Source: Chiridota heheva (lineage: Eukaryota; Echinodermata; Holothuroidea; Apodida; Chiridotidae). Taken from it: a DNA stretch of 64,000 nt. The notes under the pieces were generated by a model, which was given only the letters and a program-made list of their open reading frames with translations, ran no database searches and was not told the DNA's origin. Position 1 is the first letter of the stretch, and every line of letters begins with the position of its first letter. A program made the translations under genes and the position numbers. The stretch lies in the NCBI GenBank assembly GCA_020152595.1, contig JAIGNY010000196.1, positions 397,001-461,000 of the forward strand, written 5' to 3'. Positions 39,946 through 60,277 of the stretch are shown here, in pieces.

Positions 39946-41133
39946 CTGAAACACCATTATTAAGCTAATGTTGTCTCTACATATACCTTTGGGTCTTTGA
40001 CTGTTGTAAACAATTAAAACAGTACGTGACAGTAGAGGCATGGGGAGCCATTGGGGAAACTACTGTCACAAATTTACTTAAAGGTAAAAGTACTAATGTT
40101 ATGAATGAAAGGCAATGGATAATTTAGTTCAACTTGATATTGAATATCTGAGTAGGGAGCAGCCATTTTAGAATGAAAATTTTGTGGACAGAAAGACTGT
40201 CAGTATTATTTTCTACTGTAGAATTATGTAATTATTCAGGTGACCTCAGAATTAAACTTCTTAAAGTGCTCCTTTAAGAACCACTTCTTCCAGAAAGTAG
40301 GAACAAAAATCACTGCTTCTGCAGTTATTTTGATTATTCCTCCAAAAAAAAAATGGATGCTCAGGCTATTTAGATACCCCTGATAGCTTATGAAGGACTT
40401 TTTATTTGTATTTATGTGTAATGAAGAAATCTTAGAAGTAGTCTTAATCTGAATTGTTTTATAATTATTCTACTCCAATCTTCTAAGTCCATTAAAGACA
40501 GATGCATACCTGGGTCTTCTGTCATAAAGTACAGGTACTTAAGTTCATTAGACTTTTTTCCTTAAAACCAATAGATCAATTCTTACAGGTGCTCACAGAT
40601 CATAATCTTTCCTCCTCATGCATTGACTTCAAAGCACCTGAGGAAGTATTGCATAATGCCCTCTTACTCCCACAATCCTAATGTGAAGATTAACTGTGTC
40701 ACTTTTTATCCAATATTTGTTTTTTCCTTTCTGACCGCTTCCTATTTATCCCCTGTCAAACTCTTTCCCGTCTTTTCTCTTCAAAACAGAAAGAAAGGAT
40801 GTTCTTTCAAACCTAATACAATCCTTTAGACAGATGTCAAAGTTTACCTTCTACTTGATGAATACTGGCTTGGTATCTTTACCCGATCATCTTAGATCTG
40901 TTGGCCTTCCACCTGAAGCATTTGTTTGTTTTATTCCATGGCCATTGAATCCCTCTTGAGCCTTCTTAGACCCTCTTCACTCATTCACTCCTTTCATCAG
41001 AGTGTAGAGCACAGGTGTGAAGCCACATTGTTTCCAGGCCTTCTCCATGTCCTTCAATCTTTTATCTCTGACACTCTGCCAACCTCTCCCTCCCTCTTGG
41101 ATATCCAAACAGCATCTTATGTGGTCCTTACAG
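39946..41133. other. Intron sequence, nothing recognised
   Basis: No repeat pair or coding motif. The final 70 bases are pyrimidine-rich and lead to the acceptor of exon G. Confidence 0.45.
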
Positions 41134-41186
41134 CCAGTTACAGACAAGAGCACTTGAGCTGGCCGAGGAGAGAAAAGTGAATTCAA
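41134..41186 (+). CDS. Host gene, exon G
   Basis: A 53-base micro-exon. The acceptor ggtccttacAG follows a good pyrimidine tract, and the donor is GTAAAA. It enters in phase 2, completing the codon left by exon F, and leaves in phase 1, which is what exon H needs. It encodes QLQTRALELAEERKVNS, a charged stretch with helix-forming, coiled-coil-like composition. The non-canonical base in the donor and the small size lower the confidence. Confidence 0.55.
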
Positions 41187-42240
41187 GTAAAAAGGAAGAA
41201 AGAGAAGACTTAAGAAATCAAGTTTTGGGACAAGACTTGTTGAAACTAATGAGGAGCAAGTGTGAAGTTAATTTTTTGCAGTATGCTTGATCGTAATTGA
41301 ATCATACTGTGGTAGATGTAATCAGTTAATTGGACTTCTGATGATGGAGGGTTTACCTTCATGATTGAAGCAGCACAGATTCCAACTACTTATAAGATAA
41401 CAAGAAGTAATACTGGAGAGTCCTATACCTACTGTATGCCTACATCTCCACTTACTGGAATGTACACAAAATCTTCATTGTACTATATTAACAGTACAAG
41501 TCTTTATGATGTAGGTTTTCTTTACACATAGATGAAAGAAATGAAAGTGTGCATATCCCTCATTGGTTGCGGGTTTATTCTTCAAGGTGTAGTTCCATCA
41601 TCAGTTTGATTGTTTTAGGATTGTCATGAATGTGCATGTGTATCTACATTGCTATCTAATTCGGTTACAAATTAAGCAGTTTTAAGTTTTTATTAATTTT
41701 CAAAATTGGTCAAATTCAGGATTGAGAAAATCTCATTATGCGAGCCTATGTAATGGTGATTACGTCCGGCTGTCCGGCCGTCCACAAATTTGTCCTGAGA
41801 TTTCCTCAGAAATGTTAGAAATTTTTAAGAATTCCTCAGAAAATAATAAAGTTTTTTCAGACTTCTTTAAAAAAAGTTAAAGTTTCTTCAGATATCCTTA
41901 TGGAAGGTTAGAATTCCTTATAAAATGTTAAAGTTTTTCAGAGATACTTAAGATAGGATTGAAGACTAGTTTCCTTAAAAAGTCTCTCATACATTTGATA
42001 TTTTCTTAGAAGATATAATTTCAATATTCTTCAGAGATCTGAAAGTCTCTCTTGTAGTACTTGGGATTTATAATCCTTATAATTCTTCAAAATATTTGGG
42101 CACCAACAGTTGTATAAGGCATGATTTTTAAACTCCACCTTTATTATTGTGCTCATTTGCATAAAGTTGCTACAGTATTATGTCCTGACCAGACTTTTTT
42201 ATCTAATATGCTTAGTCAAGGAGTGTGACAGGATGTGATT
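41187..42240. other. Intron sequence with weak 35-base periodicity
   Basis: Between about 41795 and 42060 a loose pattern of 'ttcctcagaaa..ttagaa.tttt' and 'ttaaagtttttcaga' recurs at 30-40 base spacing. No gene recognised. Confidence 0.4.
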
Positions 42241-42244
42241 GCAT

Positions 42245-43715
42245 ATAAACATAGGGAGGGATGCCATGTGGGACATGGATGGGGCCATAAAGGACATATG
42301 ATTTAATATTTACCATGTTGTATACACCAAGGGCTAAATCAGGCATAATTATCTGACTCCACCTTTTTTTCTTATTCAACAACTCATTTGCATATAAGTT
42401 AATATATGAACTGACACTTTAATACATAGTATGCTCAATCGTGGAATGTGATAGCTAGGATGAGACTTCTTATGGAGCTTATGGGATGTCATGTAAGACA
42501 GGGTGGGATGCCATGTGGGACATGGGGTGGGATGCCATGTGGGACATGGGTTGGGATGCCATGTGGAACAGGGTGGAATGCCACGTAGGATATGTGGTGG
42601 AATGCCACGCAGGGCGTAGGGTGGATAACCATGATGGAATGTCATGTGGGACATGGGATGTCATGTGGGACATGGCCCCACCCCATTTCAACAAGTCATT
42701 TGCATATAAGTTATTATATGAACTGACACTTTCATACATAGTATGCTCAATCAGGGATTGTGATAGCTAGGATGAGACTTCTTATGGAGCCTATGGGATG
42801 TCATGTGGGACATGGAGTGGGATGCCCTGTGGGACATGGAATGGGATGTCATGTGGGATATGGGGTTGGATGCCATGTGGAACAGGGTAGAATGCCATGT
42901 GGGACATGGTGAGATGCCACGAGTAACACAGAGTGTGACATAGGTTGGGATGCCATGTGTGACATGAGGTAGGATGCCATGTGTGACATAAGGTAGAATA
43001 CCATGTGTTTCATAGGGTAGAAGGCTATGTGGGACATAGGGTAGGAGGCCATGGGGATGTGGGACATGGGATGTAATGCCATGTGGGACAAAGTAGGATG
43101 TCATTAGGACATTAGAAGGGATACCATGTGCAACATATGGTGGGATGCTATGTTTAACATCAGGTGGGAAGCCACTGATGCGGGACACAAGGAGGAATGC
43201 CATGTGGGACATAGGGAGGGATGTCATGTGGTACATATGGTTGGATTAATGTGGGACATACATGTGGGATGGGATCCATATGGGTCATAGCGTGGGATGC
43301 CATGTGGGACAGATGGTGGAATGCCATGTGGGACATATGGTGGAATGCCATGTGAGACACTGTATGGTGGTTTGCCATGTGGGAGATATGGTGGAATGCC
43401 ATGTGGGGCAAGGCATGGGATGTCATGTGGGACATGAGGTTAGATGTCATTTGGTACATGGGATGTGGGACATAGGGTGGAACGCCATGTGGTTCATAGG
43501 ATGGGATGCCCTGTGGGACATATGATGGAATGCCACGTGGGACATGGGATGTCATGTGGGACATGGGGTAGGATGCCATGTGGAAGATACGGTGGAATGC
43601 CATGTGGGACATGGGATGGAATGCCATGTGGGATGCCATGTGGGACATGGGGTGAGATACCATGTGGTACATGGGATGCCATGTGGGACTTAGTGTGAGA
43701 TGCCATTTTCATAAT
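42245..43715. repeat. 24-bp satellite with higher-order units
   Basis: The basic unit is gggtgggatgccatgtggga + catg, 24 bases, with many variants. Inside the array, a non-satellite block of about 105 bases (catttgcatataagtta ... gatagctaggatgagacttc) occurs at about 42384 and again at 42708, and a weaker version of its first part at 42150. The array therefore grew in larger units of about 320 bases as well. Long His/Met/Pro-rich frames on minus are artefacts of the 24-base (eight-codon) period. Confidence 0.95.
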
Positions 43716-44029
43716 TGGCCGGGTCATATAATATGGGTGTCAATTTGCATAGGCATGCGAATCATGACGGTATTTACCGTTCTAGTTGAAATCTTTAGTT
43801 GAACAGCATTTATTTAATAGCATAAATCATTTCCTTGTTGAAAAGATCTGGATCATGATGCTAGCAAATAAAGAATATTAAGGGTATCAAATTTTGTTTG
43901 ATTGAGCATTAATTGAGCATTTTTAACCATTTTAAAATGCCAGTCAAATGTCTAAAGACGAAAAGCTGAATTGCAAAATTTGTGATGTATGACTGGGCAG
44001 ACAGCGATTAAAATCTTGATGTTATTTTT
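43716..44029. other. Spacer between repeats
   Basis: No gene or repeat recognised. Confidence 0.4.
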
Positions 44030-44250
44030 TCCTAAATCTTAGTCACTGAAAATTATGGGAAAGTCTAGTCCTGCTAAAATTTTATTGGGGGCATGGCATC
44101 AATATAAAAACTTCTGGTCGGAACTTGCTGCACCACTTTAAATAATTATGATAGACTTTTAAAAACAAAGGAATTACAACAGAAAATATCAAGGTCGCCC
44201 TGTAAAACATAATATTTGCATAAAATATCCAAACTGTAGTAGTATAAGGC
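44030..44250 (+). repeat. Left half of dispersed repeat 'X'
   Basis: Ctgaaaattatgggaaagt ... cttgctgcaccactttaaat ... aaggtcgccctgtaaaacat corresponds to the left half of the copy at 18390-18680. It stops where the inverted-repeat sequence ccccaaactatgat begins. The matching right half is found at 54625-54780. Confidence 0.55.
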
Positions 44251-44345
44251 CCCCAAACTATGATTGGTGCACAAACTATGTTCATGTGCATTGGGGTGAA
44301 GGTCCGGAAGGTGGTCTCACCCCAATGTACATGAACATAGTATGT
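44250..44345. mobile_element. Small inverted-repeat element, parent-like unit of the 27-bp satellite
   Basis: On the left, 'cccccaaactatgattggtgcacaaactatgttcatg', then catt-gggg. On the right, the inverse caccccaatgtacatgaaca, then 'tagt'. The two halves form a hairpin around 'tgaaggtccggaaggtggtc'. The same sequence borders and makes up the 27-bp satellite at 53187-54620. Confidence 0.65.
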
Positions 44346-44763
44346 GTACCAAGCAATTACAATTGCTTTCTCTTTTGTTTTGTCTCTTTGCCATTTGTCA
44401 GTAAGGTTTTCATTTAATGCTGCCAAATGTCAGCGAGATTTTTGTGAGTTGATTTTGAAGTCTGTAATTCTATGAAGCCGAATTTGACTTGGATGCTTTT
44501 TTGAAGTAAGATTATTTTTAGCAAGTTTGATTTCTGAAGCAGAATATTTTTTACCGAGTCATTTTTGGAAACAGTTTAATTTTGCAATGGCTCATTGATT
44601 TGTGGATTTAAGTGGAGGAAGAACCAGTTTCAAAATTTAAACCTGTTGAATACAGTGACAGTGATGCTATTTAGCATTTTAATGACAAGGTAACCTCGTA
44701 CCAATTTTTACAATGATTATCAAAATCATTCACAAGATGGGTAGGGGTATCACACAAGTTTTT

Positions 44764-46210
44764 TTACCAGTCCCCAGTAAATACCTAAGACCAGTCCCCA
44801 GTAAATACCTAAGACCAGTCCCCAGTAAATACCTAAGACCAGTCCCCAGTAAATACCTAAGACCAGTCCCCAGTAAATATTTAAGACCAGTCCCCAGTAA
44901 ATACTTAAGACCAGTCCCCAGTAAAAACTTAAGACCAGTCCCCAGTAAATACCCAAGACAAGTCTTCAGTAAATACATAAGACCAGTCCCCAGTAAATAC
45001 TTAAGACCAGTCTTCAGTAAATACCTAAGACCAGTCCTCTGTAAATACTTAAGACCAGTCCCCAGTAAACACTTGAGACCAGTCCCCAGTAAATACCCAG
45101 GACCAGTCTCCAGTAAATACCTAAGACCAGTCCCCAGTTAATACCTAAGCCCAGTCCCCAGTAAATACCTAAGACCTGTCCCCAGTAAATACCTAAGACC
45201 AGTCCCCAGTAAATACCTAAGACTAGTCCCCAATAACTAAATACCTAAGACCAGTCCCTAGTAAATACCTAAGACCAGTCCCCAGTAAATACCTAAGACC
45301 AGCCCCCAGTAAATAACTAAGACCAGGCCCCAGTAAATACATAAGACCAGTCCCTAGTAAATACCTAAGACCAGTCCCCAGTAAATACCCAAGACCAGTC
45401 CCCAGTAAATACCCAAGACCAGTCCCCAGTAAATACATAAGACCAGTCCCTAGTAAATACCTAAGACCAGTCCCCAGTAATACCTAAGACCAGCCCCCAG
45501 TAAATACCTAAGACCAGGCCCCAGTAAATACATAAGACCAGTCCCCAGTAAATACCTAAGACCAGTCCCCAGTAAATACTTAAGACCAGTCCCCAGTAAA
45601 TACTTAAGACCAGTCCCCAGTAAATACCTAAGACCAGTCCCCAGTTAATACCTAAGACCAGCCCCCAGTAAATATCAAGACCGGTCCCCAGTAAATACAT
45701 AAGACCAGTCCCCAGTAAATACCTAAGACCAGCCCCCAGTAAATACCTAAGACCGGGCCCCAGAAAATACATAAGACCAGTCCCTAGTAAATACCCAAGA
45801 CCAGTCCCCAGTAAATACCTAAGACCAGCCCCCAGTAAATACCTAAGACTAGTCCCCAGTAAATACCTTAGACCAGTCCCCAGTAAATACCTAAGACTAG
45901 TCTCCAGTATATACTTAGACCAGTCCCCAGTAAATACCTAAGACCAGTCCCCAGTAAATACTTAAGACCAGTCCCCAGTAAATACCTAAGACCAGTCCCC
46001 AGTAAATACTTAAGACCAGCCCCCAGTAAATACCTAAGACCAGTCCCCAGTAAATACCTAAGACCAGTCCCCAGTAAATACCTAAGACCAGTCCCCAGTA
46101 AATACCTAAGACCAGTCCCCAGTAAATACCTAAGACCAGTCCCTAGTAAATACCTAAGACCAGCCCCCAGTGAGTACCTAAGACCAGTCCCCAGTAAATC
46201 CCTAAAACAA
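44764..46210. repeat. 24-bp satellite, about 60 copies
   Basis: The unit is ccagtccccagtaaatacct + aaga, 24 bases, very regular, with point variants such as cccccag and ttaag and occasional short deletions. Frames RPVPSKYL on plus and LGTGLRYL / GIYWGLV on minus arise from the period. It ends about 250 bases left of the Polinton-like genes. Confidence 0.97.
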
Positions 46211-46361
46211 GTCCCTCGGAAATACCAGATTGCGCAGTGTACATACTCAGTACGCCAATAGCGACATAGATAGGAAAACCTAAGGAATATATTTTTAAAG
46301 AATATAGCACAAAGCCGTAGGTATCTGGTTGAAAAAAATTAGTAAACAAGAAACGATTTTT

Positions 46362-46460
46362 GTACATCAATATTTTTTATTTTGATACAATCATACAAAC
46401 ATATTATTATTATGTACACTAATATTTTTTATTTTGATACAATTATGCAATCATATTGTT
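46362..46460. repeat. About 60-bp direct duplication at the left edge of the viral block
   Basis: 'aatattttttattttgatac' followed by 'aatcatacaaacatatt' occurs at 46369 and again at 46422 with two or three changes. Confidence 0.7.
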
Positions 46461-47265
46461 ATTCTTTCTTCCATTAGCAGAAATGTGTGTTGTTGCCCCC
46501 ATTATTGTCATTGTCGGCCTGGTTCATGCGCTGTCTGTCTTGGTTGATGCCCATGTTTTATCTGTAAAAAGTAAGAATAAAAGTACAATGTATGCAAAGA
46601 TGAATTTAGTTGATCAATTAGTACTGAGCAATATGGAGTTTATAGATGCACGATTACAAGCACCTTTTACATGGATAGTTGCTGGCTCTACCGGCAGCGG
46701 TAAAACAGTTCATGTAATAAAAGCACTAAGTAAAGATTTCATAAATCCAACAGTGTCCAAAGTGTATTGGTTCGATGGGATTTGGCAGAAAAAATACAAT
46801 ACAGTGCCAAGCAATTATGAATTTGTGGAAGGTTAACCTCCTTCAGATTTTTTGGAAAGGATTGACACATCACAACATAATGTGATTGTCATTGATGATT
46901 TGATGTTGGCAATGGGTCAGAAAGGGGGGTGAAGTAGTCACCAAATTATTTACACGGTGCAGTCATCATGCAAATGTATCGGTGATTTTAATTCTTCAAA
47001 ATTTATTTTTCAAAGGAGGGAGAGAGTTACATTACGTGTCTGTTTTTTCATTTTTAAACACAGATATGAGTGTAATCAATACAATGGCTATTAAAAACAA
47101 ATGTACCCCGGCAAGAAAAACGGAGAAAGTTTCCTAAAGGTGTACGAAGAGGCAACGTTTAAAACGTTTGGTTATTTGTTTTTTACATTAAAGCCCGGTA
47201 CGTCTGATAAGCTACCATTGCGCACGGATGTGTTTGAAAATGTGCAAACAAGTTTTGAAATTTGA
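46456..47265 (+). pseudogene. Polinton/adintovirus-type packaging ATPase, broken
   Basis: This is a decayed gene for the FtsK/HerA-type ATPase that pumps DNA into the capsid in Polinton/Maverick and adintovirus elements. What is seen: PFTWIVAGSTGSGKT with Walker A at 46684-46707, then VYWFDGIWQ. An in-frame stop follows at 46834. VIVIDDL (Walker B, 46882-46899) comes after it, then a stop near 46930. A +1 shift gives LFTRCSHHANVSVILILQN from about 46943. Frame changes after 47080 lead to a C-terminus ending at TGA 47263. At least one in-frame stop and two or three shifts make it non-functional. The true start is probably the Met at 46588 rather than 46456, since the first 44 residues look hydrophobic and unrelated. 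Confidence 0.85.
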
Positions 47266-47364
47266 AAATGTATATAAAGTAAGGGGTGAATGTATTTGTA
47301 ATCAGTTGTGTTTATGATTGAGGGTTCACATAATTTTGATAATATAAAAAGGCATAAAGGTGAA

Positions 47365-47715
47365 GAGTAAAGATTGTTGTGAAATTTGTACAAATGTATC
47401 ACCAGCTTTTTATCAAATACTTGGCGAGATCGCCTTGAACATTAATAAAGGAATAGTACCTTGGACTGAAGAGCAAAAAGTGTGTATGCGTCCTTATTCT
47501 AATATTTTGTAAGTGTTGGCTCATAAATCTATCCCGCATTAGTAAAGAAGGAAGCTTTTGTAAAAGTTATGGTAAAGGGGCGAAATAAAAGAGGGGGTGG
47601 TAACTTTTATCAGCGTGTGATTAAACCGGTGTTGCAAACAATAGCCCCGTTTGCTGGTATACCAGCATTTCTGTTTGAAAAAGAGGCTTATACTAATCCA
47701 AAAAAACGAATATGA
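47365..47715 (+). pseudogene. Small basic virion-protein-like gene, broken
   Basis: Downstream of the ATPase. The first half holds NINKGIVPWTEEQK, a 'K/RG.VP.T..QK' pattern that I associate with a small protein encoded next to the capsid gene in animal Polintons. After a stop and a frame change, an intact frame of 48 codons runs from ATG 47569 to TGA 47713 with a basic, Gly-rich start (KGRNKRGGGNFYQR) and a hydrophobic segment (VLQTIAPFAGIPAFLF). Core or membrane-active virion proteins of adenovirus type have this composition. The assignment is by position and composition, not by a diagnostic motif. Confidence 0.45.
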
Positions 47716-48356
47716 AGTGATCTATAGTTATTCCTTATGCTGAATATATGGCAACAAAAAGAAATTATGAACAGCCCCTCCCTGAAAACAAATTGGTGTT
47801 TAATCTTGAAGAAGAAATTAAAAAGATATGGAAGACAGTACTTTGCAGGATGATGAAAAAATTGATCAATTTAGTAATGTTTTAAAAAACATAAAAAGAT
47901 TCAATCCCATTGCTGTTTAATGTGCAAACATCCCCTTTCATCCCACACCGACTATTGTCACCAATAGACTTGTTACTTTATAAGTCACCGGGTGCCGAGG
48001 AGTTGGAGATTCCCAAAGCCTTGTCAGTATCGATAATGGAAAAAGAGCAAGGAAAAGTAAAAAGTTTTTAAACACAATCTGGAATGTAATGGGGGGATAG
48101 GTTTAATGTAAAAGGAGCTTTAGTCTATGGTGGCAAAGAAATTAAAGGATCAAGTTTGACTGATTTACTAGCTCAAAGTGCATGACCATTGAGACGTTTG
48201 ATGGCACCAGGAATGAACTCATTTATGGCCGCTTTAGCGGACACTAATGTTCCACTTTCATTTATCCCAAATCGTGAATTGAGAGAATTGGTGAGAGAGA
48301 TGCGTGTCAGTCCAATCCCATATAAGGACGATGATGATGAACTCGATATTATCTAG
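47712..48356 (+). pseudogene. Second structural-region protein, broken, acidic C-terminus
   Basis: An ATG at 47712 overlaps the TGA of the preceding frame (ATGA), as in compact viral gene blocks, but a stop follows at once and the frame shifts. Visible pieces are IPYAEYMATKRNYEQPLP near 47735, SLTDLLAQSA near 48153, MAPGMNSFMAALADTNVPLS near 48200 and an acidic end (DDDDELDI) before TAG 48354. The stop at 48183 and at least two shifts break it. I recall 'GS.L.DL......P.G...F...L...NVP' as typical of a protein lying between ATPase and capsid genes in Polintons of marine animals. The exact function is unknown. Confidence 0.5.
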
Positions 48357-48399
48357 GAGGATGAACTTACCGAAGAAGATATAAAAACAGCAACGACAG

Positions 48400-48637
48400 T
48401 ATCAATCTTACCCCTGATTTGTGGAAGGGAAGGCATACAGTGTTTGGTTTTGATTTAACTGTGGACAAATCGGCAGGAAAATCATTCGATATGAAAAAAG
48501 AAGGTATACTGAAATTGTCCATGAAGCTCGCAGAAAGTCTCCTTAAAGCAGTCACAGTTATGGCATATTGTGAATATGATGAAATTCTGAAGATCAATCA
48601 GAACAGGACTGTCATTTACAAACCTATAAATACATAG
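48400..48637 (+). pseudogene. Extra copy of capsid-protein C-terminal module
   Basis: The frame carries NLTPDLWKGRHTVFGFDLT, then charged and hydrophobic strands (LKLSMKLAESLLKAVTVMAY), and EILKINQNRTV, ending in TAG at 48635. The FDLT.D signature followed by 'L.L...LA..L...V.V.AY.EYDEIL.I..NR.V' is what I expect at the C-terminus of the F54H12.2-like (hexon-type) capsid family. A second FDLTPD motif occurs at about 49985 in the main capsid gene. The fragment lies directly before the N-terminus of that gene and has no capsid N-terminal part of its own. It may be a remnant of a tandem paralogue or of a rearrangement. Confidence 0.65.
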
Positions 48638-48727
48638 ACAACAGTTCAAATTAACCATGAACATTTTTTGAAACCAACCATCAATAACATCTTTGAAACC
48701 GATTTTGTATAATTATGAAAAACGATT

Positions 48728-50060
48728 TTGATGAGCCTCTTAAACCTATGTTCAAGAAACGTAAGAAGTCTTGAGGGTTTGAATCTGATATCAGACAATC
48801 ATGCGCTAGATTATTTTACCTCGCCACCACCTGAGCAGACAGCAATTGTGCAAACAGAAGAGGAAATCTTTCTACCTCATGAGGGGGTCACAACCCCGGG
48901 GGTCTTTTGATTTGTGATACCCGCACAACCCCCCGGTGTGTACCTAGGCTTGTACAATACACGATTACTGCTGGGTCTGAAGAAAGTAAAAGGGGAAAGT
49001 TCCAAACAAACTGCTTCTGATAGGGTTGTACCAATCAATGCTATCTTTCATATGTTATGGTCATCTGTGGAAGTGTAGTTCAATAGGGTAAAAGTTCATA
49101 ACCCAATGCAAATAAACCCGTACAAAGCCTATTTGGGATCGTTGCTGTCCTACGACAGCAACTGGAAGAAAACCACGGGAAAAAGGGTGGGGTGGTATCA
49201 GACAGACTTGGGCAATTCAGAACCTAGTGTTTATGTGCCAACCACTGCATCAACGCACCGCGAAGGGATGTGGACAAAGGAAGGGGACGCAAAGGGGACA
49301 CATGCCGCAAACAAGTTTATCTTAGCAGAAATGGAAGCTCTCCATGAAGCCACAAAAGAGGAAAGAGTTTACGAATATATGGGACCATTAAAACTGGACA
49401 TTTTCAAGGCTGCTTAAATCATTTCCGATGGGGTACAAATAGAAAGCATTCTTAAACCCACTCGTGCAAAGTTTAATATTATGGCTGGAACAGCGGCGGT
49501 AGAAGACAACAATTATCATATAGAGGTGTGGAAAGCAAAACTTTATGTGCTGAAAGTAACCATCAGCCAGGAAGCCCAGGCCCATATCGATAGGTTATGG
49601 GTCCAAAGGCCTATAACAATACCGTTCCAAAGAATAAAGATTCAGACATACACAGCAGTGGTGGTGTAAAAATTGTACCTTTCAGGGCCAATTTGTTTTC
49701 TGAAATTCCAAAGCGTATATTTATTGCACACATGGATGATACATATATGTATATAAGAAAAGCTTATAAGAAAAGCCCCTTTTTCTTCATGGAGGCAGCT
49801 TTGGAAAGTTTACAGATCACTGCAAGAGCAACTCGGTTTCCTAGAGAAAAATGGATTATGAACTTTACAACGAGGGCTGGAAAGCACGAGGCCTATAAAC
49901 GTTTTAAGATATGTGTAAGGTTTGAAAGATGGTGCCGAAGGTATAGGGCTAGAATCCCCCGGAGGGGGCAATAATATTTATGCCTTTGACCTAACCCCAG
50001 ATCAAAGTCATTGGCAAGGTCATTATAATAAAACTTGGGAAGGCAGCATTTTGTGAACTG
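48728..50060 (+). pseudogene. Major capsid protein (double jelly-roll, Polinton/adintovirus type), broken
   Basis: The N-terminal part (48728-48907) reaches EIFLPHEGVTTPGVF before a stop, and the gene then continues in another frame. From 49106, NPYKAYLGSLLSY is a hallmark of this capsid family, in which it follows the predicted first barrel strands. A stop at 49415 interrupts. From about 49440 the second barrel region follows (AKFNIMAGTAAVEDNNYHIE, then 'LYVLKVTIS'). A shift near 49640 leads to FRANLFSEIPKRIFIAHMDD and KAYKKSPFFF. The last part has YAFDLTPDQSHWQGHY near 49980 after another shift. At least four breaks are visible. The protein would form the hexon-like trimers of the virion. 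Family assignment rests on these ordered motifs, from memory of F54H12.2-like proteins. Confidence 0.82.
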
Positions 50061-50084
50061 TTGTAAACTTTTGTGATTTAACTT

Positions 50085-50523
50085 ATGAAAATGGCTCTTG
50101 TAATGAATACCAAAAATGTGCCTTCAGGCAGCGGAGATGGGAAGCGCCAGGTGAAATTGGTGACCCCTACTACTTTACTGGCGGTGATGGAATCGGATAG
50201 TGATATAGAGTTTGTGGCAACCATGATGAGAGGCAAGAGTTACACCCCGTCTGATTTTCTATCGGAAAAAATCGGTCAAGAAACGGCTATGACCTACTCC
50301 ATTGGTAAAGATAGAAGAGCATGCAGATGATTCAGCTTCTGATGATACCGATGAGGAATCAGACACAGAAAAGGAAGAGGATGGACAGGTTGTTTCACAA
50401 GCAGAGGAAGCTGTATCCACCCCTGTAACACCCCTGGCAACAAAGAAATTATCATCATCAAAGAAATTAGCAAGGAGGCAGGAGAAGGCGAAAGAAGCAG
50501 AAGAGAGGCAGAAGCTGATTTAA
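50085..50523 (+). pseudogene. Acidic/lysine-rich protein of the viral block, one frameshift
   Basis: Two overlapping frames form one apparent gene. Frame one runs from ATG 50085 to about 50320 (NVPSGSGDGKRQVKLVTPT, then SDIEFVATMM). A +1 shift leads to frame two (50302-50523), which begins acidic (DDSASDDTDEESDTEKEED) and ends in a Lys/Arg/Glu helix (SSKKLARRQEKAKEAEERQK). I do not recognise it. A charged, disordered, possibly scaffold or core role is only a guess from composition. It sits just after the capsid gene on the same strand, so it was likely part of the late structural block. Confidence 0.5.
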
Positions 50524-50540
50524 AAACTATGTGAGCAATG

Positions 50541-52245
50541 TCTGTTTCAATATGGTAGTTCCTTGTTTACAGCATATCATATCAGTTATGCCGTTTTTGC
50601 TAGGGTACATGAGGGCATTCTGCTTATTATGCAAATCCCCCATTACCTTGTAGGTCAGATTGCAGCTATGATTAATGCTAAAACATTCAGAGTAGGCAAA
50701 GTGAAACCAGTAAAGTTAAAAGATACCAAACCAAAGTGCCAGCATATATGCTGGCATTAATGAAAGACTTGAGGGGTTAGAGCCGGAAGATGAATCATTA
50801 TTTACACTATTATTTATTAAATGCTTGTATTACCATGGGTTTGTGGGGGCTGCCAAAGACTGTGTTAGAGTAGAGGACATGGTTAGTTTCCCTATGGTGT
50901 CGGTCAGAAAGTTGGAAGGGGTGGTTAAACTATTTTCATTTTTGGAAGGCATGTGGACAGAGAAATTGACCAAAATGGCAATAAAAACGTCTAAGAGAGC
51001 TGCCAATGAAGATTGGTTTACCCTCTTGCAATATTTTGAGGTCTCTTAGCCCATCAACAAGATTGTGTTGATAGCCTGACCAGTATTGTGGAAGGGCTCA
51101 CACCAACAAGGGGGCACAAATACCAGTAAAACGCTTGGGGTGACTAAAATTTGGATCATCAAGCACATTTAAAAATGTTGGAAAAAATTGCGTTGATAGC
51201 GGAATATACGCAGGGTTGGACTAAATTTTGTTTTGAAAAAATGAAATTTTTAATGAATATGAGCATTATGCAGAATGGTCAAAAGAGGTTGCAAAGAAAC
51301 AAACAATTGACATAATGTTAGACATAGAGTGTGATATGGTAGTGACTCATGCTAAGCTTTGTTATATCACAACAACACTGAATTCAGTTGCGAGAGAATT
51401 GGATATTAATTATTTGTCTATTTCAAATTTGCGAATAAGGAGGGTCCTGAGGGAAAGATTCTTAAGTGGGCGGATATGGCCTCCCCTTTTCGACCAGATC
51501 ACATGTACCTCACCCGAAATGAATAAGGTAAGGCCTACAAGTCTAAGGCAAAATTGGTGGAGAACGAAGGCAATGTGTTTGGTAAGAGAGATGTTTTTTG
51601 TTAAAAGGTAATTGAAGACTTTTTTCTTCTTCACAGTCAACAAAGAAGTTTCAAAAGTGGTTAGTTCAGAATATGCAAAAGATATGGAGGAAATTATTGA
51701 GGGGGTAGCACATGACAATGAAGTGTATCTTTGGTTTTACTGGGTGCCCTGTATATACATTTGTTCTATTGTCGCCATGATCAGTATCACCCGACAGCAA
51801 AATTGGTAACTATAATGACTGGGATTTCTATGTGGGTATCTAAGGAGGTCAATGGGGCTATGATAGAGGGAGAATTTACATTTGCTAGCACGGTGGGGGG
51901 TAATTTGCGTATTTAACAGCACCAGAGCAGCCGTTAATTGATTTTAGAGAATTAACGGCTAAAATTATAGCTTGTCGAATACAATTGAAACTGCAAAGGG
52001 AATATACCGATACACCTCTAGCATGGAAGGCATACACTATGCAGGAAAGGTTGGATGTTGTTCTCCTATCGGTAAAATGTATAAGAAATGTGCAAGACAG
52101 TTTGGGAAAGTTTGATTGGTTTGAGGGGGTAAATGTTTGTGGGGTAATACACAATATTTGGATCAAGCACGTTGTAGATTGTATTTTTATAGTGATTATT
52201 TTAGATGACACATTTTTGGCGGGAAATGTTTTGGCGGGAAAATAA
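50541..52245 (+). pseudogene. Large unknown coding block of the viral remnant, heavily broken
   Basis: A string of plus-strand frames in shifting phases has codon-like composition: 50563-50760, 50825-51049 (KDCVRVEDMVSFPMVS, then LEGMWTEKLTKMAI), 51315-51611 (DIECDMVVTHAKLCY), 51612-51809, 51731-51916 and 51985-52245 (RQ-type helix, then QERLDVVLLSVKCI). They overlap end to end as expected for one or two long genes with many indels and stops. No motif lets me name them. They contain no visible DNA-polymerase B, integrase or cysteine-protease signature. They may encode minor capsid or host-interaction proteins. Confidence 0.5.
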
Positions 52246-52269
52246 AATTGGCGGGAGTATTGACGGGAA
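52216..52269. promoter_or_regulatory. Cluster of four E2F-like boxes
   Basis: TTGGCGGGAAA occurs at 52216-52226 and 52231-52241, TTGGCGGGA at 52248-52256, and TTGACGGGAA at 52260-52269. All are in the same orientation and 12-17 bases apart. TTGGCGGGAA matches the E2F/DP binding consensus. The cluster lies at the right edge of the viral coding block. Whether it is a promoter, an origin element or a short repeat cannot be told from sequence alone. Confidence 0.55.
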
Positions 52270-53182
52270 GGTTGGGAGGTAATAATTGAACGGAATGATA
52301 ATGATTTAACTTACAGATATATGATGGTGGTATCAAGCGTTGATGATATAGCCATTGATTTCTTGAAGATATCGCAGATAATCAGTTTGAAAAACTTATA
52401 AAATAGTATCTCTTGTACAAATATTGCATGGTAAATCAGTATATGTGTAGTAAATAGCTGTGGCACACCAAGAAGCAACTCTTCAGACTTGAGGCAAGCA
52501 GACGGGTGGTATTTAAAAGGACAAATATTCACAAAATACTGTTGCAAACTGGTGGACTATTATTGGTTAGGTTAGATCACCTGTATGGGACGTATTTCTT
52601 GTAACTAGGGAAGAGTGGCAGGATTTCTGAAGTCATAGAATGACCTTGCGTGTCTTTTTGGCATGATTCTGAGGTCATTGAATGACCTGCATTATTTTAT
52701 TTCACAATCCTTGTAGCTGTTCATGAAAGGTTATGGGAAATTTTCAATTAATGTAGTTGATTAAATTATTGTATGTAATGTAAGCACCCGCATATATGTA
52801 TTATTACTATTTTGATAATAGACTGAGTTACTTTATTAATTGCAGTGGGTACTTGGCTAGATTTGTTTATGCTTTTCTTCATGTTGTACAGATGAAATTA
52901 CTTTCGATTAGGGTTTAGTTCTGTGTTTGTCACATTCTTCTTAGAATTGTCCAGGTACTTGCATAATTTTTTTTATCTCACAATTTTTCATCTATTCTTA
53001 CAATATTACTTAAAGGTGTATAATGGCTGTAGATTTAGAACTATACAAATTGTATAATCTGAAGACTTTTACAAAATCTTATCTCGATGTTGATTTGTAA
53101 AAGTTTTACCGGCAAGCACAAATAATATCTCAATGGAATTTGTGTTGGTTGGAACATCTGGCTGAATTAAACAAAAAAACCT
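52270..53182. other. Spacer right of the viral block
   Basis: AT-rich, no gene recognised. One short duplicated phrase (tgaccttgcgtgt.../ggcatgattctgaggtcattgaatgacc against gaagtcatagaatgacc) lies at 52630-52690. I looked for a Polinton-type terminal repeat pairing with 46210-46460 and found none. Confidence 0.45.
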
Positions 53183-53186
53183 AATG

Positions 53187-54620
53187 CCCCCAAACTATGA
53201 TTTGGTGCACAAACTATGTTCATGTACATTGGTGTGTGAACTATGTTCATGTACATTGGTGCGTGAAGTATGTTCATGTACATTGGTGCATGAATTATGT
53301 TCATGTACATTGGTGCGTGAACTATGTTCATGTACATTGGTGCATGAATTATGTTCATGTACATTGGTGCGTGAACTATGTTCATGTACATTGGTGCGTG
53401 AACTATGTTCATGTACATCGGTTCCTGAATTATGTTCATGTACATTGGTGCCTGAACTAGGTGCATGTACATTGGGGCCTGAACTATGTTTATGTACATT
53501 GGTGCGTGAACTATGTTCATGTACATTGGTGCATGAATTATGTTCATGTACATTGGTGCGTGAACTATGTCCATGTACATTGGTGCGTGAACTATGTTCA
53601 TGTACATTGGTGCATGGACTATGTTCATGTACATTGGTGCGTGAACTATGTTCATGTACATTGGTGCACAAACTATGTTCATGTACATTGGTGCACAAAC
53701 TATGTTCATGTACATTGGTGCACAAACTATGTTCGTGTACATTGGTGCACAAACTATGTTCATGTACATTGGTGCACAAACTATGTTCATGTACATTGGT
53801 GCACAAACTATGTTCATGTACATTGGTGCACAAACTATGTTCGTGTACATTGGTGCACAAACTATGTTCATGTACATTGGTGCACAAACTATGTTCATGA
53901 ACATCGGTGCAGTTCATGTACATCGGTGCGTGAACTATGTTCGTGTACATCGGTGCGTGAACTATGTTCGTGTACATTGGTACACAAACTATGATCATGT
54001 ACATCGGTGCGTGAACTATGTTCATGTACATCGGTTCGTGAACTATGTTCATGTACATCGGTGCCTGAACTATGTTCATGTACATTGGTGCCTGAACTAG
54101 GTGCATGTACATTGGGGCCTGAACTATGTTTATGTACATTGGTGCGTGAACTATGTTCGTGTACATTGGTGCGTGAAGTATGTTCATGTACATTGGTGCG
54201 TGAACTATGTTCATGTACATTGGTGCGTTAATTATGTTCGTGTACATTGGTGCGTGAACTATGTTCGTGTACATTGGTGCGTGAACTATGTTCATGTACA
54301 TTGGTGCATGAAGTATGTTCATGTGCATTGGTGCATAAACTATGATGATGAACTATGTAACCGGAGGTCGAAATAGTTAGTGCCAATGCGTGAACAATGT
54401 TCAATGTACATTGGTGAACATAGTTGAACTATGTTCGTGTACATTGGTGCATAAACTATGATTCACGCTGCAATGTAGTAACACGAACATAGTTCACACA
54501 CCAACCAGGTCCGAACATAGTTCATGCACCAATAGTTCACACACCAACCAATGTACACGAACATAGTTCACACACCAATGTACATGAGCATAGTTTGAGC
54601 ACCAATCATAGTTTGAGGGC
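53187..54620. repeat. 27-bp satellite inside an inverted-repeat element
   Basis: The unit gtgaactatgttcatgtaca + ttggtgc is 27 bases, with roughly 45 copies. The left edge (cccccaaactatgat.tggtgcacaaac) is the inverse of the right edge (54576-54620, ...accaatcatagtttgaggg). From about 54480 the units run in reverse orientation. A rare variant pair (ctaggtgcatgtacattggg, then 'tatgtttatg') recurs 640 bases apart (53461, 54101), showing block duplication. The frames of 238, 245 and 377 residues are products of the nine-codon period. Confidence 0.95.
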
Positions 54621-54624
54621 TTTA

Positions 54625-54785
54625 TGCTTCTAACTGTACCTGATATTTTGAAATGGTTAATGTTTTGCGATTTTGATGAAATATTTTGCAACTATGATGG
54701 TTTTTAATAGATTTTAAAGCATTTTAGCTAATGTTGCCTTTGCTTGTCCATATACATTCAGAAATTAACTGATGTAGTTTCAGTA
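54625..54785 (+). repeat. Right half of dispersed repeat 'X'
   Basis: 'gattttgatgaaatattttgcaactatgatggtttttaatag' and agcattttagctaatgttgc match the right half of the copy at 18390-18680. It begins at the end of the inverted-repeat element, just as the left half at 44030-44250 ends at the start of the small version of that element. Confidence 0.5.
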
Positions 54786-55955
54786 GAATGCACCAAAACA
54801 AGAATACTTTTCAAAAAGTCACCAAGAGAATACTTTTTAAAAAGTCACAAAGTTTACAAACTTTTTTTGTAAATTAGCTATGATTTTAATCAGTTTTAAT
54901 GCAATTAAATCAAGCTGACACAGGAGGAGAGACCGTTAACAAGCTATTTTGTATTTGTTTCACTTGTTATAAATGAAAACCAACAAGTGTCTGTAAGGAA
55001 AATAAAGAAAGCTATCATGCTATCAACGTGTGTAGAACATGTGAATTTTGTAACAGAAGGGAGATGAACATAAAAAGACTTTTGTTTCACGCACTGACCT
55101 TATTCAGATTTTAGCAGGTGTTTTTATTCATTTACATTTGACTGAGGCAGCATCTTAGATGCGAAGGAGCAGTTTTATGGCTTGAATATTGCTCCATTTT
55201 ATCCCCTCCAGATAGATGCTCATTTAGATTTCATTCTTTCATGTAGCCAGTATGCACAAAAAGATTCATTTCAAATCTCTTCATTAAGATATCACAAAGA
55301 TAACTGGTGGGTTTTTTGTGTTTGAAAATATTTTTGCTACATTTCCAGGGTAGTTCTAGGTGTATCTTTATAACAGGGACATCTAGTTCATCAGCGTATT
55401 TATTCAGGATATTCTGAATTAAAAATGAATTGGAATTCATAGAAATGTGTTTTGAGAGGTGTCTCAAGGACTTTGTGTAAGAAGACTCTTTCGCGAACAT
55501 TGAAGAGAACGTCCTGTGTCTTTGGAAGTGGTACAGCAGAAAAATATCAACTTTGTGGACTTCTTAAAGCATTGTGGATGATGGGCAGCTGACAAAATCA
55601 TTCAGTTTAAAACATTGGATTTTCTTTCTTCTCATATTCACACAATAGTGGAGATCTAAAGATGACTAATTATTTCTGCTTTCTCAAGAATTTTAGAATG
55701 ATATAAATTTCATTAACAACTTTTCTATGTTAAATTTTCTATTGAAAAAAGTGTTTTAAGTTGTAATTTTTGTTCCTAAATTTTAAAAGCAGTATATTTA
55801 GTTTTCAAATAAAAAGGATCCAAGTTTGAGGTTTTTTAATAAATGCAAAATTTGTAATGCGAAGAATCTTTGTTATTTTTCAATTCCGTTCTTTAATTTC
55901 AAGCATTAAAAATAATGAAAATTAAGCAAAAAGAGTCAAAAACTCTGTCAGAATC
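54786..55955. other. Intron sequence, nothing recognised
   Basis: AT-rich. A minus-strand frame of 89 residues (55231-55500) has no recognisable motif and no splice context that I can support. Confidence 0.4.
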
Positions 55956-55959
55956 ATCC

Positions 55960-56283
55960 ACTCTCTCTTCTTCAAGAAAGCTTGACAGGTTAAAAGATAA
56001 GAGTTTAATCGGTAGAACGACGATGAGTGAACACACAATTACAATGACGGGGTCGTCACCTGCGTAATCGGTTATGATAGTAACAACGCTATCACGAAAC
56101 GCTTAATACGACCCGCATGAGAACACAGGTACGACGTACGGACAGACATAAGATCGACAACCAAGTCAATGTCCACGGCTTTTGATAAATAGTTGTGGTG
56201 CACTGGAGTGTCTACCCAACCCAGGCTTGAACCCAGGACCTCGTGTTCTGTAGACATGTATTATAACCGCTACACCACAGTAG
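55960..56283 (-). mobile_element. tRNA-derived SINE, minus strand
   Basis: Read on minus from about 56283, TGTGGTGTAGCGGTTA is an A box and CTGGGTTCAAGCCTGGGTT a B box (GGTTCAAGCC). The body is relatively GC-rich and rich in CpG-containing words (tacgacgtacggacag on plus). The head resembles 17750-17830 and differs from the SINE at 23.2 and 63.3 kb. The 3' end is not sharply defined. Confidence 0.7.
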
Positions 56284-56309
56284 GTAGAAACAAAGTGGCA
56301 TCTTCTTTA

Positions 56310-56809
56310 ATAGAAATTTCATTTTCATATAATCATGATAGAGAAGTCTATGAAAAAACACTTTGATGTTAAAATCATGTTGATATCTTTTTTCCGTTTA
56401 GGAGTTATTGCATTTTTTAATTATTGCACGAGTGTGTTAAAAAGTAACCTCACAGTGTACAGTGTGATATCATTAAAGGCAAATTCAAGACAATTTTAGT
56501 ATGTTTCTTTGAAAATTAATTGCCTCTTCCTGGCTTACTGGAAGCATTTTTGTTTATTTATTGAGATCCGGCATAACATACACTTTATAAGAGTGTGCCT
56601 TGCTCATCTGAGAAATACATAAGAATTGGATCTGCCTTTATGACATCACATTTTACACAAAGAGGTCACTTTTCAACATTCGCGCAATCTTTGAAATGCA
56701 ATAACTCCTAAACAGAAAGATATCAAGATAATTTTACACCAAATTGTTTCTTTAATAGTCCTCTAGCTGGTACATGTATGTGAAAAGTCATTGGAATATT
56801 CCTTAAATC
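56310..56809. mobile_element. Palindromic MITE, TTAA/ATTCC family
   Basis: The left arm contains 'ttgatatcttttttccgtttaggagttattgcatt' and the right arm its inverse, 'aatgcaataactcctaaacagaaagatatcaag'. The outer right end is ggaatattccttaaat. The middle matches 28550-28740. The right end was later used as the target of the RTE insertion at 56810. Confidence 0.75.
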
Positions 56810-57133
56810 TTCTTCTCCTGGCTTGAGTCCCACATCAGGTGGGGTCGCCGGTGTGGATCAGCCTCCATCTCCCTCTATCTTTGGCATCAACTTCTTTCAC
56901 CCCGACAACTCCCATATCCTCCTTCACACAATCCCTCCATCTCTCTTTGGTCTACCTTTCCTCCTCTTCCCAACAGTCATCTGCTGGACCCTCTTGCCAA
57001 CATACTCCTCTTCCCTTCTGAACACATGTCCTTTTCACTGCAGCCTTCGCTCACGAACCTTGCCATTAAACTCACCCACTTGCAGCTTTTCTCTCACCAC
57101 CTTGTTTCTTACCTGGTCATTTTGGTCACATAA
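56810..57133 (-). mobile_element. RTE-type LINE 3' fragment with perfect 16-bp target duplication
   Basis: GGAATATTCCTTAAAT lies at 56794-56809 and again at 57134-57149, a clean target-site duplication. On minus, the insert reads the C-terminal tail of an RTE-clade reverse-transcriptase protein: 'REEEYVGKRVQQMTV', then GKRRKGRPKRD, then a 'W..L..TP' type end, with stops. It is 5'-truncated (324 bases), as usual for LINE copies. The plus-strand frame of 117 residues is its mirror and is rejected. The RTE label rests on the conserved 'GRRKRGRPK' type tail. Confidence 0.85.
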
Positions 57134-57178
57134 GGAATATTCCTTAAATGACATCCAAAATCTAATTCTAATCTAAAA

Positions 57179-57600
57179 TAGTGTCACTCGCATCCGCCTC
57201 GGTCACTCCTCTCACACACTCCCATCTTTCCGGCTTCTCTGCCCTCTCTGCCCCACCTGCAACACCAACCTCTCCATCATACATATTCTTTTAAGCTGTC
57301 CCCTGTGCCTAAACTCCAGGTCTCTTCTCTCCTCACCCACCTCAATTTTGGATCTCTTCAAAGAAAATCCTTCCAACCTTTTCCACCATATCTAATCTAC
57401 CTTTCTCCTCCCTTCTACACCTTACCTTACACACCCCTTTCTTTCCACCTTATTTTTTCTCCTAAATTCACCCTATTCTTCCTCTCAATCCTTCATCTCC
57501 TCTCTGTCTAACTCTTACACCTTAATTTTGTATTACCCTCTTGGTACATTTGACTCTGACTGTTGCGGTGCTGTTAAACATCAACAAACCAAACCAAAAT
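57179..57600 (+). mobile_element. I-like LINE 3' end with CCHC-type tail
   Basis: The plus frame gives VTRIRLGHSSHTLPSF followed by a C-x2-C-x7-H-x4-C cluster (codons at 57249, 57258, 57282 and 57297). This arrangement is common at the C-terminus of I/Jockey-group LINE proteins. A C/T-rich 3' region and the tail catcaacaaaccaaaccaaa follow. The 3' part matches 38797-39170. It is truncated at the 5' side. Confidence 0.75.
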
Positions 57601-58316
57601 TTAAATAAAAGTAACATATTAAGATGTGAAAAATGATCAAAATTATTAAGTGGTAAATTTTCAAATGGCTTTGACAAAGTTTTTTTTATTTTTTAATTTT
57701 TCAATTTGATATATATAAATTATAAGACAACTCAGTAAATATTGTGCCTAGATGCCCATAGTTGGTGATTGTGATATTGATGAGTACAAATCGGGTACAG
57801 AAAAATGAAATAACAAGGCTGATATCAAAATTATAATCAGTTATCCATAATGCAAGAAATTGTTGAAAGAAAAAATGAAAATTGTTTTTTATACATCTAT
57901 TTAATTTTTTTTTTTTCACTTTTATTTAGTTGAAAAAATGATATTTAGTGAGGATATAAAGATCTATGGGCAGGCAGTAACAAGTTGAGCATTAAGATAT
58001 AGATATAAAATGTGCTATAAAACTTGAGAATAACAACAACAAAACATCAAAATTGTTTAAAATTTAAGCATTTTACACCTTTTTAAATTTGTAGCCTATA
58101 ATATAATAAATGGTGCAAATTTTATTGAAATTTTGTGACATCACCAGAAGAACACCCATTCATTTCCTGATGTTGATATTGTTTTTTATTCATGCATCAA
58201 AAGTTTTCTTGAATGTAAGTAATTTAATATGGCCAAGAGGTTTTAATCTCCTCATTTAAATTTAGCAGGAGAAAAGTCTGGTGATTCATAGTGACTGAAA
58301 TTATAGGCAAGAAATT

Positions 58317-58912
58317 TAAAGGATTAGTTGAGTGGTCAAGTACGTTCATCTTATGTGAAAGAGGACTTCAAAAGAAACAAAATAGTGAAAAAAGCATTCA
58401 AAATTTGTATTCCATTAAGGAGATATGCAAGTTTGAAGTTTGGTATCATTTCTGTAAAAACAACTGAAATCAGACTAGTTGTGACAGCCTCAGATTGCTC
58501 CAAGTCTTTATGTATTTTAAAGTAAATTTGTTTAATTTTTTCACTATGTAAATTATTTTTTATCAAACTTGCTTCAGGTGGTATATTATAAACACCCTTT
58601 ATAGATTCAATTTTACTACTTTTTTGACATATTACATGGTTTTTAAGCCACAAAATCACAGGACAAAATATGATAAAATACATAAAGACTTTGAGGAATC
58701 TGAGGCTATGACATCACAACTAGTATGATTTCAGTCGTTTCTATACAAATGATACCAAACTTTAAACTTAGATATTTCCTTATCAGAATAAAACTTTTGA
58801 GTGCTTTCTGCACTATATATTCAAGTTTAAAGCTGTCTTTATTTGTGTAAAATTGACTGGTGTAATATATCTACTATGGTTTCTTCACTTGACCCCTGCA
58901 CTTATCCTTTAC
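58317..58912. mobile_element. Foldback MITE, 600 bp
   Basis: The arms face each other. Left 58385-58525 (tttggtatcatttctgtaaa ... ctcagattgctccaagtctt) is the inverse of right 58675-58830 (aaagactttgaggaatctga ... caaatgataccaaac). The outer ends also pair loosely (ttaaaggattag..gtcaagt with acttgacccctgcacttatccttt). The frames at 58328-58525 (plus) and 58351-58683 (minus) come from the arms. Confidence 0.7.
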
Positions 58913-60277
58913 AAACTATTCTATTCTGAATTTAGAGCTCTTTCTGGTGGCTATAACATTAAAGTTATGATGTAATAGATCTAAATTCAAAGCATCAAAC
59001 TCATTGTAACATAGTCACTGATTTTCTTGGACAATATGAAGTTCATATTAGGACCAGAGAATATATGCTCTGCACTAAGTATATGGGGTGTAGACCTTTA
59101 TGCACTAAGTTAGTATTGATCTATTTTAAAGCTCCCTCATAAACTGACAATATCCATAATCTCTTCCCCCTCTGTCACTCACCTTGATGGACACAGTGGT
59201 CTATTTACCCGATGTTTAAGCCCTTTCTCTACCCACCATTAGGACTCTCCACTCTTGTTTAGAAACACCTCCCATTACTAATTAGTCTGCATTGTCTACA
59301 TGCTTACTACGAAGTGCCACCTCATTGTTAACCAACTTGTTTGTAAATTTACAAAGCAAGTGTATGGGATAATATATACTACAGGCCAGAGTATTTCATG
59401 GCTTCCAGCTTCTGTTTGGTAAGCTTAGGTAGTTTTGTATAGAAATGTTTTATTTGAACAACTGGGCAAAATAGAGATTCTTTTGGGTGGATTTTGAGGT
59501 TTTGGATGACAGACTGGTAGGGGGCTGATACAACAGTGTATTTCATGGTGGCAGTTGCTTAATACAAGTAATTGTAAACAGCCTGAGACCAAGATAGCTT
59601 ACATGATTCACATATGTTTACTGTTAATAAGTGGCATTACACTCTTTGAGCAAGATGTTATATTTGTGTTAAAAAGAGAACTTGGGTTAAATTAAAAAAA
59701 CGGAAAGATATGATATATGAGTCAAATGGTAGGAATTTATTATTAAAGCTTTTGCTACCTACAACTAATTGTTTACTAAATTGTTTTTTTATTTCATATG
59801 TCTTGAGAATGTTTGTATGCCAGAAAGCACAAACATTGATTTACACTTATGCACATCTTTTATATTTGAAATTAAGGAAAAAAAAACAACTAGATGCAAT
59901 TTTTTTCTTTTAAAAGTTTTGAAATATAAAACAGAATTAAACACCGAAATTAAGTGAGAGAAGTGACTTCACTGTGAAAAAGTAGTTCTAGCAACCCTCT
60001 ATATGTTTCAATTTGACAACTTCTGTTTGTCACAGGATAATGTACATTGCAAATGGGGATGTGTCCCATCTCCTCCAATCACATTGCAGAAAACAACTTG
60101 AATGGATGTGCATTAAAATAGGATAACAACTGTCCTCCTATTCACACATCACACTAACATTTATCATAAAGACTTTTACTTTGATAAGCTCAAATTCAGC
60201 CTTCATTCCAGGAACTGTATAATATACTTTCATCATTTTAAAACTTTTTTACTCAAAGTTTCCTGCTTCTTTTTAAG
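58913..60277. other. Intron sequence before exon H
   Basis: No repeat pair or gene recognised. It ends with tcctgcttctttttaag, a fair pyrimidine tract and acceptor. Confidence 0.45.

Follow-up and report, generated by a model that had tools for sequence, protein, structure and literature searches.

Two divergent capsid genes in a probable decayed Polinton of the holothurian Chiridota heheva

The 64,000-nucleotide stretch of Chiridota heheva DNA analyzed here ("the window", C189:397001-461000) contains, between 44.4 and 53.2 kb, a series of broken virus-like genes, and raises the question of what kind of element they come from and how much of it is left. Very probably, a Polinton (Maverick/adintovirus-type element) has left a decayed copy in this region, with broken reading frames and three internal stretches likely deleted. 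This identification is based on a packaging ATPase and a capsid, which match Polinton/adintovirus-type families, as anticipated by the original prediction, where positions 46456..52245 were read, from the sequence alone, as an endogenised element of this type; the integrase and the likely protease, missing here, are found in copies from the same genome. The capsid sequences belong, by their arrangement, to two genes rather than to the single one originally proposed.

Capsid and packaging genes

The 1179 open reading frames (ORFs) of at least 30 aa found in the window were searched with a capsid profile (length 437) built from 35 Polinton-type proteins: seven matched at E<=1, six of them at 48365-50053 with E values from 1.9e-19 to 0.011. 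The seventh, on the minus strand (25028-25408, E 0.38), is at chance level. The six pieces are assigned to two genes, the C-terminus of one (MCP1) and, after it, almost all of another, very different one (MCP2), because, in profile coordinates, a piece covering 354-434 precedes pieces running from 55 to 397. The N-terminal part of MCP2 was recognized in the window by its DNA match to the copy on contig C3691. Across the copies read in the same genome, MCP1 fragments and MCP2 fragments each cover most of the capsid profile, and MCP1 immediately precedes MCP2 in 14 of the 16 distinct MCP2-bearing copies, the window being counted; on C3417 and C220, MCP2 is found without MCP1 directly before it, apparently through deletion. 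When fragments of the two are compared, identity ranges from 15 to 29%; as to whether they are sisters, two small trees disagree.

A 324-aa frame from the C3691 copy matched four capsid-type proteins (376-473 aa, best E 2.4e-11), and a profile of these four retrieved at least 1094 proteins at E<=1e-5, among the best 7997 candidates scored. Three of the 120 listed homologues are named here, from a sea cucumber (Apostichopus), a feather star (Antedon) and a periwinkle (Littorina). A model of P0001, one such relative, reached a mean predicted local distance difference test (pLDDT) score of 87.6, with fold matches to PBCV-1, grouper iridovirus, Sputnik and mavirus capsid proteins; in a viral library, its top match is an unnamed bracovirus protein (32% identity), followed, among others, by adomavirus, adintovirus and giant-virus proteins. 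The window capsid is a double-jelly-roll major capsid protein (MCP) of Polinton type.

The packaging ATPase, also predicted originally, was found in four pieces, in order, by a profile of 29 relatives (best E 2e-47; PF04665 and/or PF02456 present in 18 of the 29). The four matching ORFs are consecutive, all within 46438-47262 (E from 2.4e-17 to 9.1e-4), and no other of the 1179 ORFs matched at E<=0.01; the gene is a packaging ATPase of A32/FtsK type. In both ATPase and capsid genes the reading frames are interrupted by stops and shifts, as already noticed for the larger genes from the sequence alone. Ready-made Pfam and PHROG models gave nothing significant on single window pieces, and family-specific profiles were therefore needed: the profile check suggested in the original prediction succeeded with the latter and failed with the former. 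Sequence searches against solved structures also gave none.

Related copies in the same genome

Searches over 1.10 Gb (3744 contigs) showed that the DNA of the window matches at least 32 contigs, its own included, with 58 other matches at 68-89% identity among the best 40 of 258 candidates scored. Further contigs read in this genome carry a rhodopsin-type receptor (L010, PF00001, E 2.6e-16) and an ion channel (L015, PF07885, E 4e-5), as is likely for an animal host. The order common to the copies is ATPase, small frame, basic protein, acidic protein, integrase, X1/X2, preMCP1, MCP1, MCP2, protease-like gene and two right-hand genes. X1 and X2 are conserved frames at the place expected for the minor capsid (penton) gene, and this penton/PW-like region is so called by position. 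An rve integrase is present in other copies, being matched by two of five pieces (best E 3.6e-7; the piece shown in full is below the curated cut-off), and is absent from the window copy itself. The seed named "INTchromo" was dropped as a chromodomain, since the Chromo match in the C3106 frame starts only at the end of this seed. A protease-like gene, similar to one in the C3106 locus (E 5e-8), follows MCP2 in 11 of the 16 MCP2 copies. The small basic, acidic-tailed and acidic/Lys frames, described originally in the window only, all recur in other copies. Two family copies lie head to tail on C838 (L009, L017), separated by a simple repeat, copy B beginning shortly past the protease-like gene of copy A. 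Two other copies, L036 (C3190) and L038 (C825), are about 3% apart, one of them on a 19-kb contig, and are possibly two haplotypes of one locus.

The pooled ratio of non-synonymous to synonymous substitutions (dN/dS) between copies is 0.41 for the ATPase, 0.45 for the integrase, 0.50 for MCP1, 0.44 for MCP2 and 0.42 for the protease, values to be read as past constraint, and not as its measured strength, since codons were gathered with protein seeds, which favor conserved stretches. In the five other frames of the same genes the ratio is 0.56-1.24, the true frame being the lowest every time. The comparison of frames suggests that both capsid genes were once under purifying selection. Copies on at least 32 contigs indicate which genes are likely missing, the aim of the search for an intact relative proposed originally; as for intactness, each of the 16 MCP2 copies has stops within its aligned codons.

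Deletions and age of the window copy

Three junctions in the window copy (Table 1) likely mark internal stretches lost by deletion; we infer the direction of the losses from the longer relatives. At the place of junction 1, copy B of C838 and C3200 contain 4.3-4.5 kb of extra DNA, holding the genes from integrase to MCP1, and C3691 only 2.1 kb. Position 50047 is crossed by none of the 58 other matches, and in the window MCP2 runs straight into the right-hand block. At 52969/52970, about 0.2-0.3 kb more is present in C679, C1630, C1047, C2929, C3200, C3226, C1089 and C1153. Junctions 1 and 2 share a few bases at most, and end-joining is therefore likely. An MCP2 piece adjoins the right-hand block also on C2902, which looks like another internally deleted copy. 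Seeds for integrase and protease have no match in window positions 44956-53745 (L020), consistent with their originally reported absence. The suggestion that only the morphogenesis half survives needs to be modified: the integrase-to-MCP1 stretch and the protease would have been lost by internal deletions, and the right-hand genes, past the capsid, survive.

The terminal branch of the window copy measures 0.057-0.060 substitutions per site; the nearest copy is C3691, C220 being equally near in one of the two regions. If neutral change proceeds at 2-4e-9 per site per year, such a branch would correspond, very roughly and only as a scale, to 14-30 million years. Given the likely loss of the integrase, of most of one capsid gene and of the protease, the window copy probably makes nothing today.

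Table 1. Features of the element in the window
Feature	Position	Strand	Evidence
Left non-coding part of the element, including 24-bp tandem array	44438..46490	+	homology to other copies; array by Tandem Repeats Finder (TRF)
A32/IVa2-like packaging ATPase, four broken pieces	46645..47247	+	29-homologue profile, matched over 2-197 of 204
Small conserved frame after ATPase, function unknown	47348..47512	+	recurs, by eye, in ORF lists of L017 and L051
Small basic protein	47527..47715	+	seed basic62 matches in other copies
Acidic-tailed protein, broken (frame 47721-48356)	47721..48385	+	seed "acid" matches in other copies
Junction 1: putative loss of integrase, penton/PW-like region and most of MCP1	48385..48386	.	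none of 58 other matches crosses
C-terminus of capsid gene MCP1 (profile-matched ORF 48365-48634)	48386..48634	+	E 1.9e-19, profile 354-434 of 437
Second capsid gene MCP2, nearly whole, broken	48715..50047	+	profile pieces 55-101, 104-188, 193-267, 284-343, 359-397 of 437
Junction 2: putative loss of MCP2 end and protease	50047..50049	.	protease-like gene after MCP2 in 11/16 copies, not in window
Right-hand gene 1, acidic/Lys-rich	50082..50523	+	recurs in C3691, by eye after the C1206 protease, as DNA on further contigs
Right-hand gene 2, function unknown, broken	50720..52245	+	recurs in C3691, C838B, C1206 and others
Junction 3: putative small deletion	52969..52970	.	other copies longer here
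Further right-hand part, interrupted by later short-repeat insertion	52970..53185	+	matches on many contigs up to query end

Extent of the element and surrounding repeats

Homology to the same-genome copies spans from about 44440 to at least 53185, past both borders originally assigned. On the left, it stops at 44438 (L025) or 44449 (L019), where outer flanks differ, the C3691 copy matching further, to 44322. On the right, the large block of unassigned sequence first described up to 52245 is confirmed as far as right-hand gene 2 recurs in other copies, and its limit is superseded, as the copies remain homologous up to at least 53185; there the homology is broken by a short repeat that contains a 27-bp array. 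Position 52969 was rejected as the right end, since homology restarts at 52970.

Inverted repeats were compared between 40000-47000 and 50001-60000: only a short dispersed repeat was found, and none pairing the two sides, in agreement with the originally reported lack of terminal repeats. From a further comparison, 25 of 139 pairs are listed. One inverted pair, 44237-44298 / 54571-54632, was rejected as element ends, because 53186-54632 looks like one such short repeat with its 27-bp array, and the same repeat occurs elsewhere. This dispersed repeat, whose ends are inverted, is present at 44237-44352 and at 53186-54632, where the interior of this longer copy has expanded to about 42 tandem units of 27 bp.

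Tandem arrays of about 24-bp units are found twice on the left. The one at 44766-46226 (24-bp, about 61 units, by TRF) is found also on the left side in the C838 and C3691 copies; the other, at 42482-43706, generates long false reading frames on both strands. On the right, a 271-bp dispersed repeat (56018-56288) occurs also between the MCP1 pieces of L032 (C2543), between the ATPase pieces of L003/L012 (C222), and in L019. At 56808-57130 lies a high-copy repeat (listed copies 90-96% identical; 21261 first-look candidates in the genome search), which swamped the genome search performed with the window sequence past 54633.

Comparison with known elements

In vertebrate Mavericks (PMC8097293), the integrase is followed by minor capsid, PW, major capsid and protease. 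The same module order is found here, with X1/X2 as the putative penton/PW-like region and the protease-like gene as the likely protease, and the packaging ATPase, the purifying selection on core genes and the degradation of most copies are also shared. In contrast, a second capsid gene is located here between MCP and protease, and the modules of ATPase and integrase share a strand, where in vertebrate Mavericks they usually occupy two. Adintoviruses, as presented in PMC11071296, likewise feature an rve integrase and a hexon-type capsid; their integrase continues into a chromodomain-like stretch, for which the matches here are below cut-off. Their definition there includes a PolB with an OTU-like domain and a hexon recognizable by BLAST; of these the hexon-type capsid is present here and PolB was not found in the stretches scanned.

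Twin capsid genes are not new as such, since they have been reported for adintoviruses and Polinton-like viruses. PMC11071296 mentions duplicate hexon ORFs in two adintovirus genomes, compared to 14 of the 16 copies examined here, and PMC12747079 describes eight elements with duplicated MCP genes and conserved synteny among the Polinton-like viruses of the cryptomonad Tyrannomonas regina, protist elements likened to the present family by the duplicated MCP genes only. The present family adds an old pair, common to most copies examined in one genome.

Classical Polintons of the same genome were compared on C3106, C1840, C222 and C3695. All four carry the ATPase, and two of them, C3106 and C1840, also integrase and MCP; on C3106 the protease-like gene adjoins its single MCP. 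C3106 and C1840 each show one capsid gene in the part read, C222 and C3695 none in theirs. C-terminal capsid fragments from the classical loci are 21-35% identical to MCP1/MCP2.

Discussion

Several observations weigh against the identification of the window element as a decayed Polinton. No terminal inverted repeats were seen, and neither the true ends nor the target-site duplication were located; searches of IMG/VR by two window pieces, capsid alignment A2 and ATPase P0123 returned no relative; rve was seen in only two of five members, the integrase having no solved-structure match. Chromo reaches E 4.2e-4 in copy B of C838 (20.6 bits, under the cut-off of 25.1) and is absent from the C3691 and C838A pieces; it is under the cut-off also in the C3106 locus (E 9.1e-5). 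The protease assignment is weak, with a Peptidase_C5 match in one of two pieces (E 0.013, below cut-off), and the gene has no significant solved structure. The preference of the codon collection for conserved stretches belongs here as well, as does the failure to find PolB in the stretches scanned, the right end not having been reached.

The resemblance of the predicted fold of a related capsid protein to giant-virus and adomavirus ones might suggest a fragment of such a virus. The sequence matches, however, are to Polinton-type capsids and ATPases, although these were not scored side by side with profiles of the other families, and the neighboring integrase, MCP and protease-like genes have matches in a classical Polinton of this genome (C3106); such an origin is barely credible. 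For a Polinton-like virus with tyrosine recombinase or primase-helicase no dedicated search was made, and the rve of other copies speaks against it. Equally hard to believe is a domesticated cluster of virus-derived host genes, still in use: dN/dS below 1 between copies would fit it, but stops are present in every MCP2 copy, the window copy combines frame breaks with missing genes, and the constraint is common to dispersed copies, which fits mobile ancestors. The two capsid genes might also derive from two elements nested one in the other, as their low identity, the lack of a clear pairing in trees and the tandem copies on C838 would allow. Against this stand the recurrent MCP1-MCP2 order, the protease-like gene following MCP2 in most copies and the lower dN/dS of both genes in the true frame, so that nesting is very unlikely.

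More depends on the polymerase. Six-frame Pfam analysis of window positions 40000-44765, 50047-53190 and 54633-59000 revealed no polymerase and no integrase, and that of L018 4500-9400 no polymerase, a weak negative because Pfam also misses the window ATPase and capsid pieces and the candidate PolB frames of the classical loci. PF03175 has at least 152 matches in the genome (83 of 1108 candidates scored), and none of those listed is on the 32 family contigs. Some are in open frames of more than 1000 aa; polymerase-bearing Polintons or similar elements may thus be young in this genome. An ordinary autonomous Polinton, with PolB outside the stretch followed and the second capsid gene arisen by simple duplication, has about even chances. 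It is favored by the usual presence of PolB in Polintons, as stated in PMC8097293 and PMC11071308, and by the homology still running where the short repeat interrupts it, beyond which the search was swamped; it is opposed by the scanned stretches and by C3200, where matches and seeds from ATPase to right-hand block leave no PolB-sized gap, some 1.5 kb there being unread. Lack of PolB is not claimed, and a family without polymerase is only a possibility. Its extension, an animal Polinton lineage whose shell combines two anciently separated major capsid proteins and which, having no polymerase, would depend for its copying on the PolB of the many elements of this genome that have one, as a capsid-bearing satellite of other Polintons, seems unlikely.

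For the decayed Polinton, a possible history may be drawn beyond what is shown, namely the homology, the gene order of its relatives, the broken frames and the lower dN/dS in the true frame. The ancestor would have entered the host chromosome as linear DNA by means of its rve integrase; the A32-like ATPase would have pumped DNA into a double-jelly-roll shell of MCP1 and MCP2, probably forming two kinds of capsomer, and the adenain-like protease would have matured the particle. Decay followed, through stops, shifts and probable deletions (likely by end-joining), and a later short-repeat insertion.

The family would then have kept two major capsid genes under selection long enough for both to occur in copies scattered over one genome, and hetero-hexon shells in Polintons would become testable. 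As a fossil, the window copy itself is ordinary and shows how such elements fall apart.

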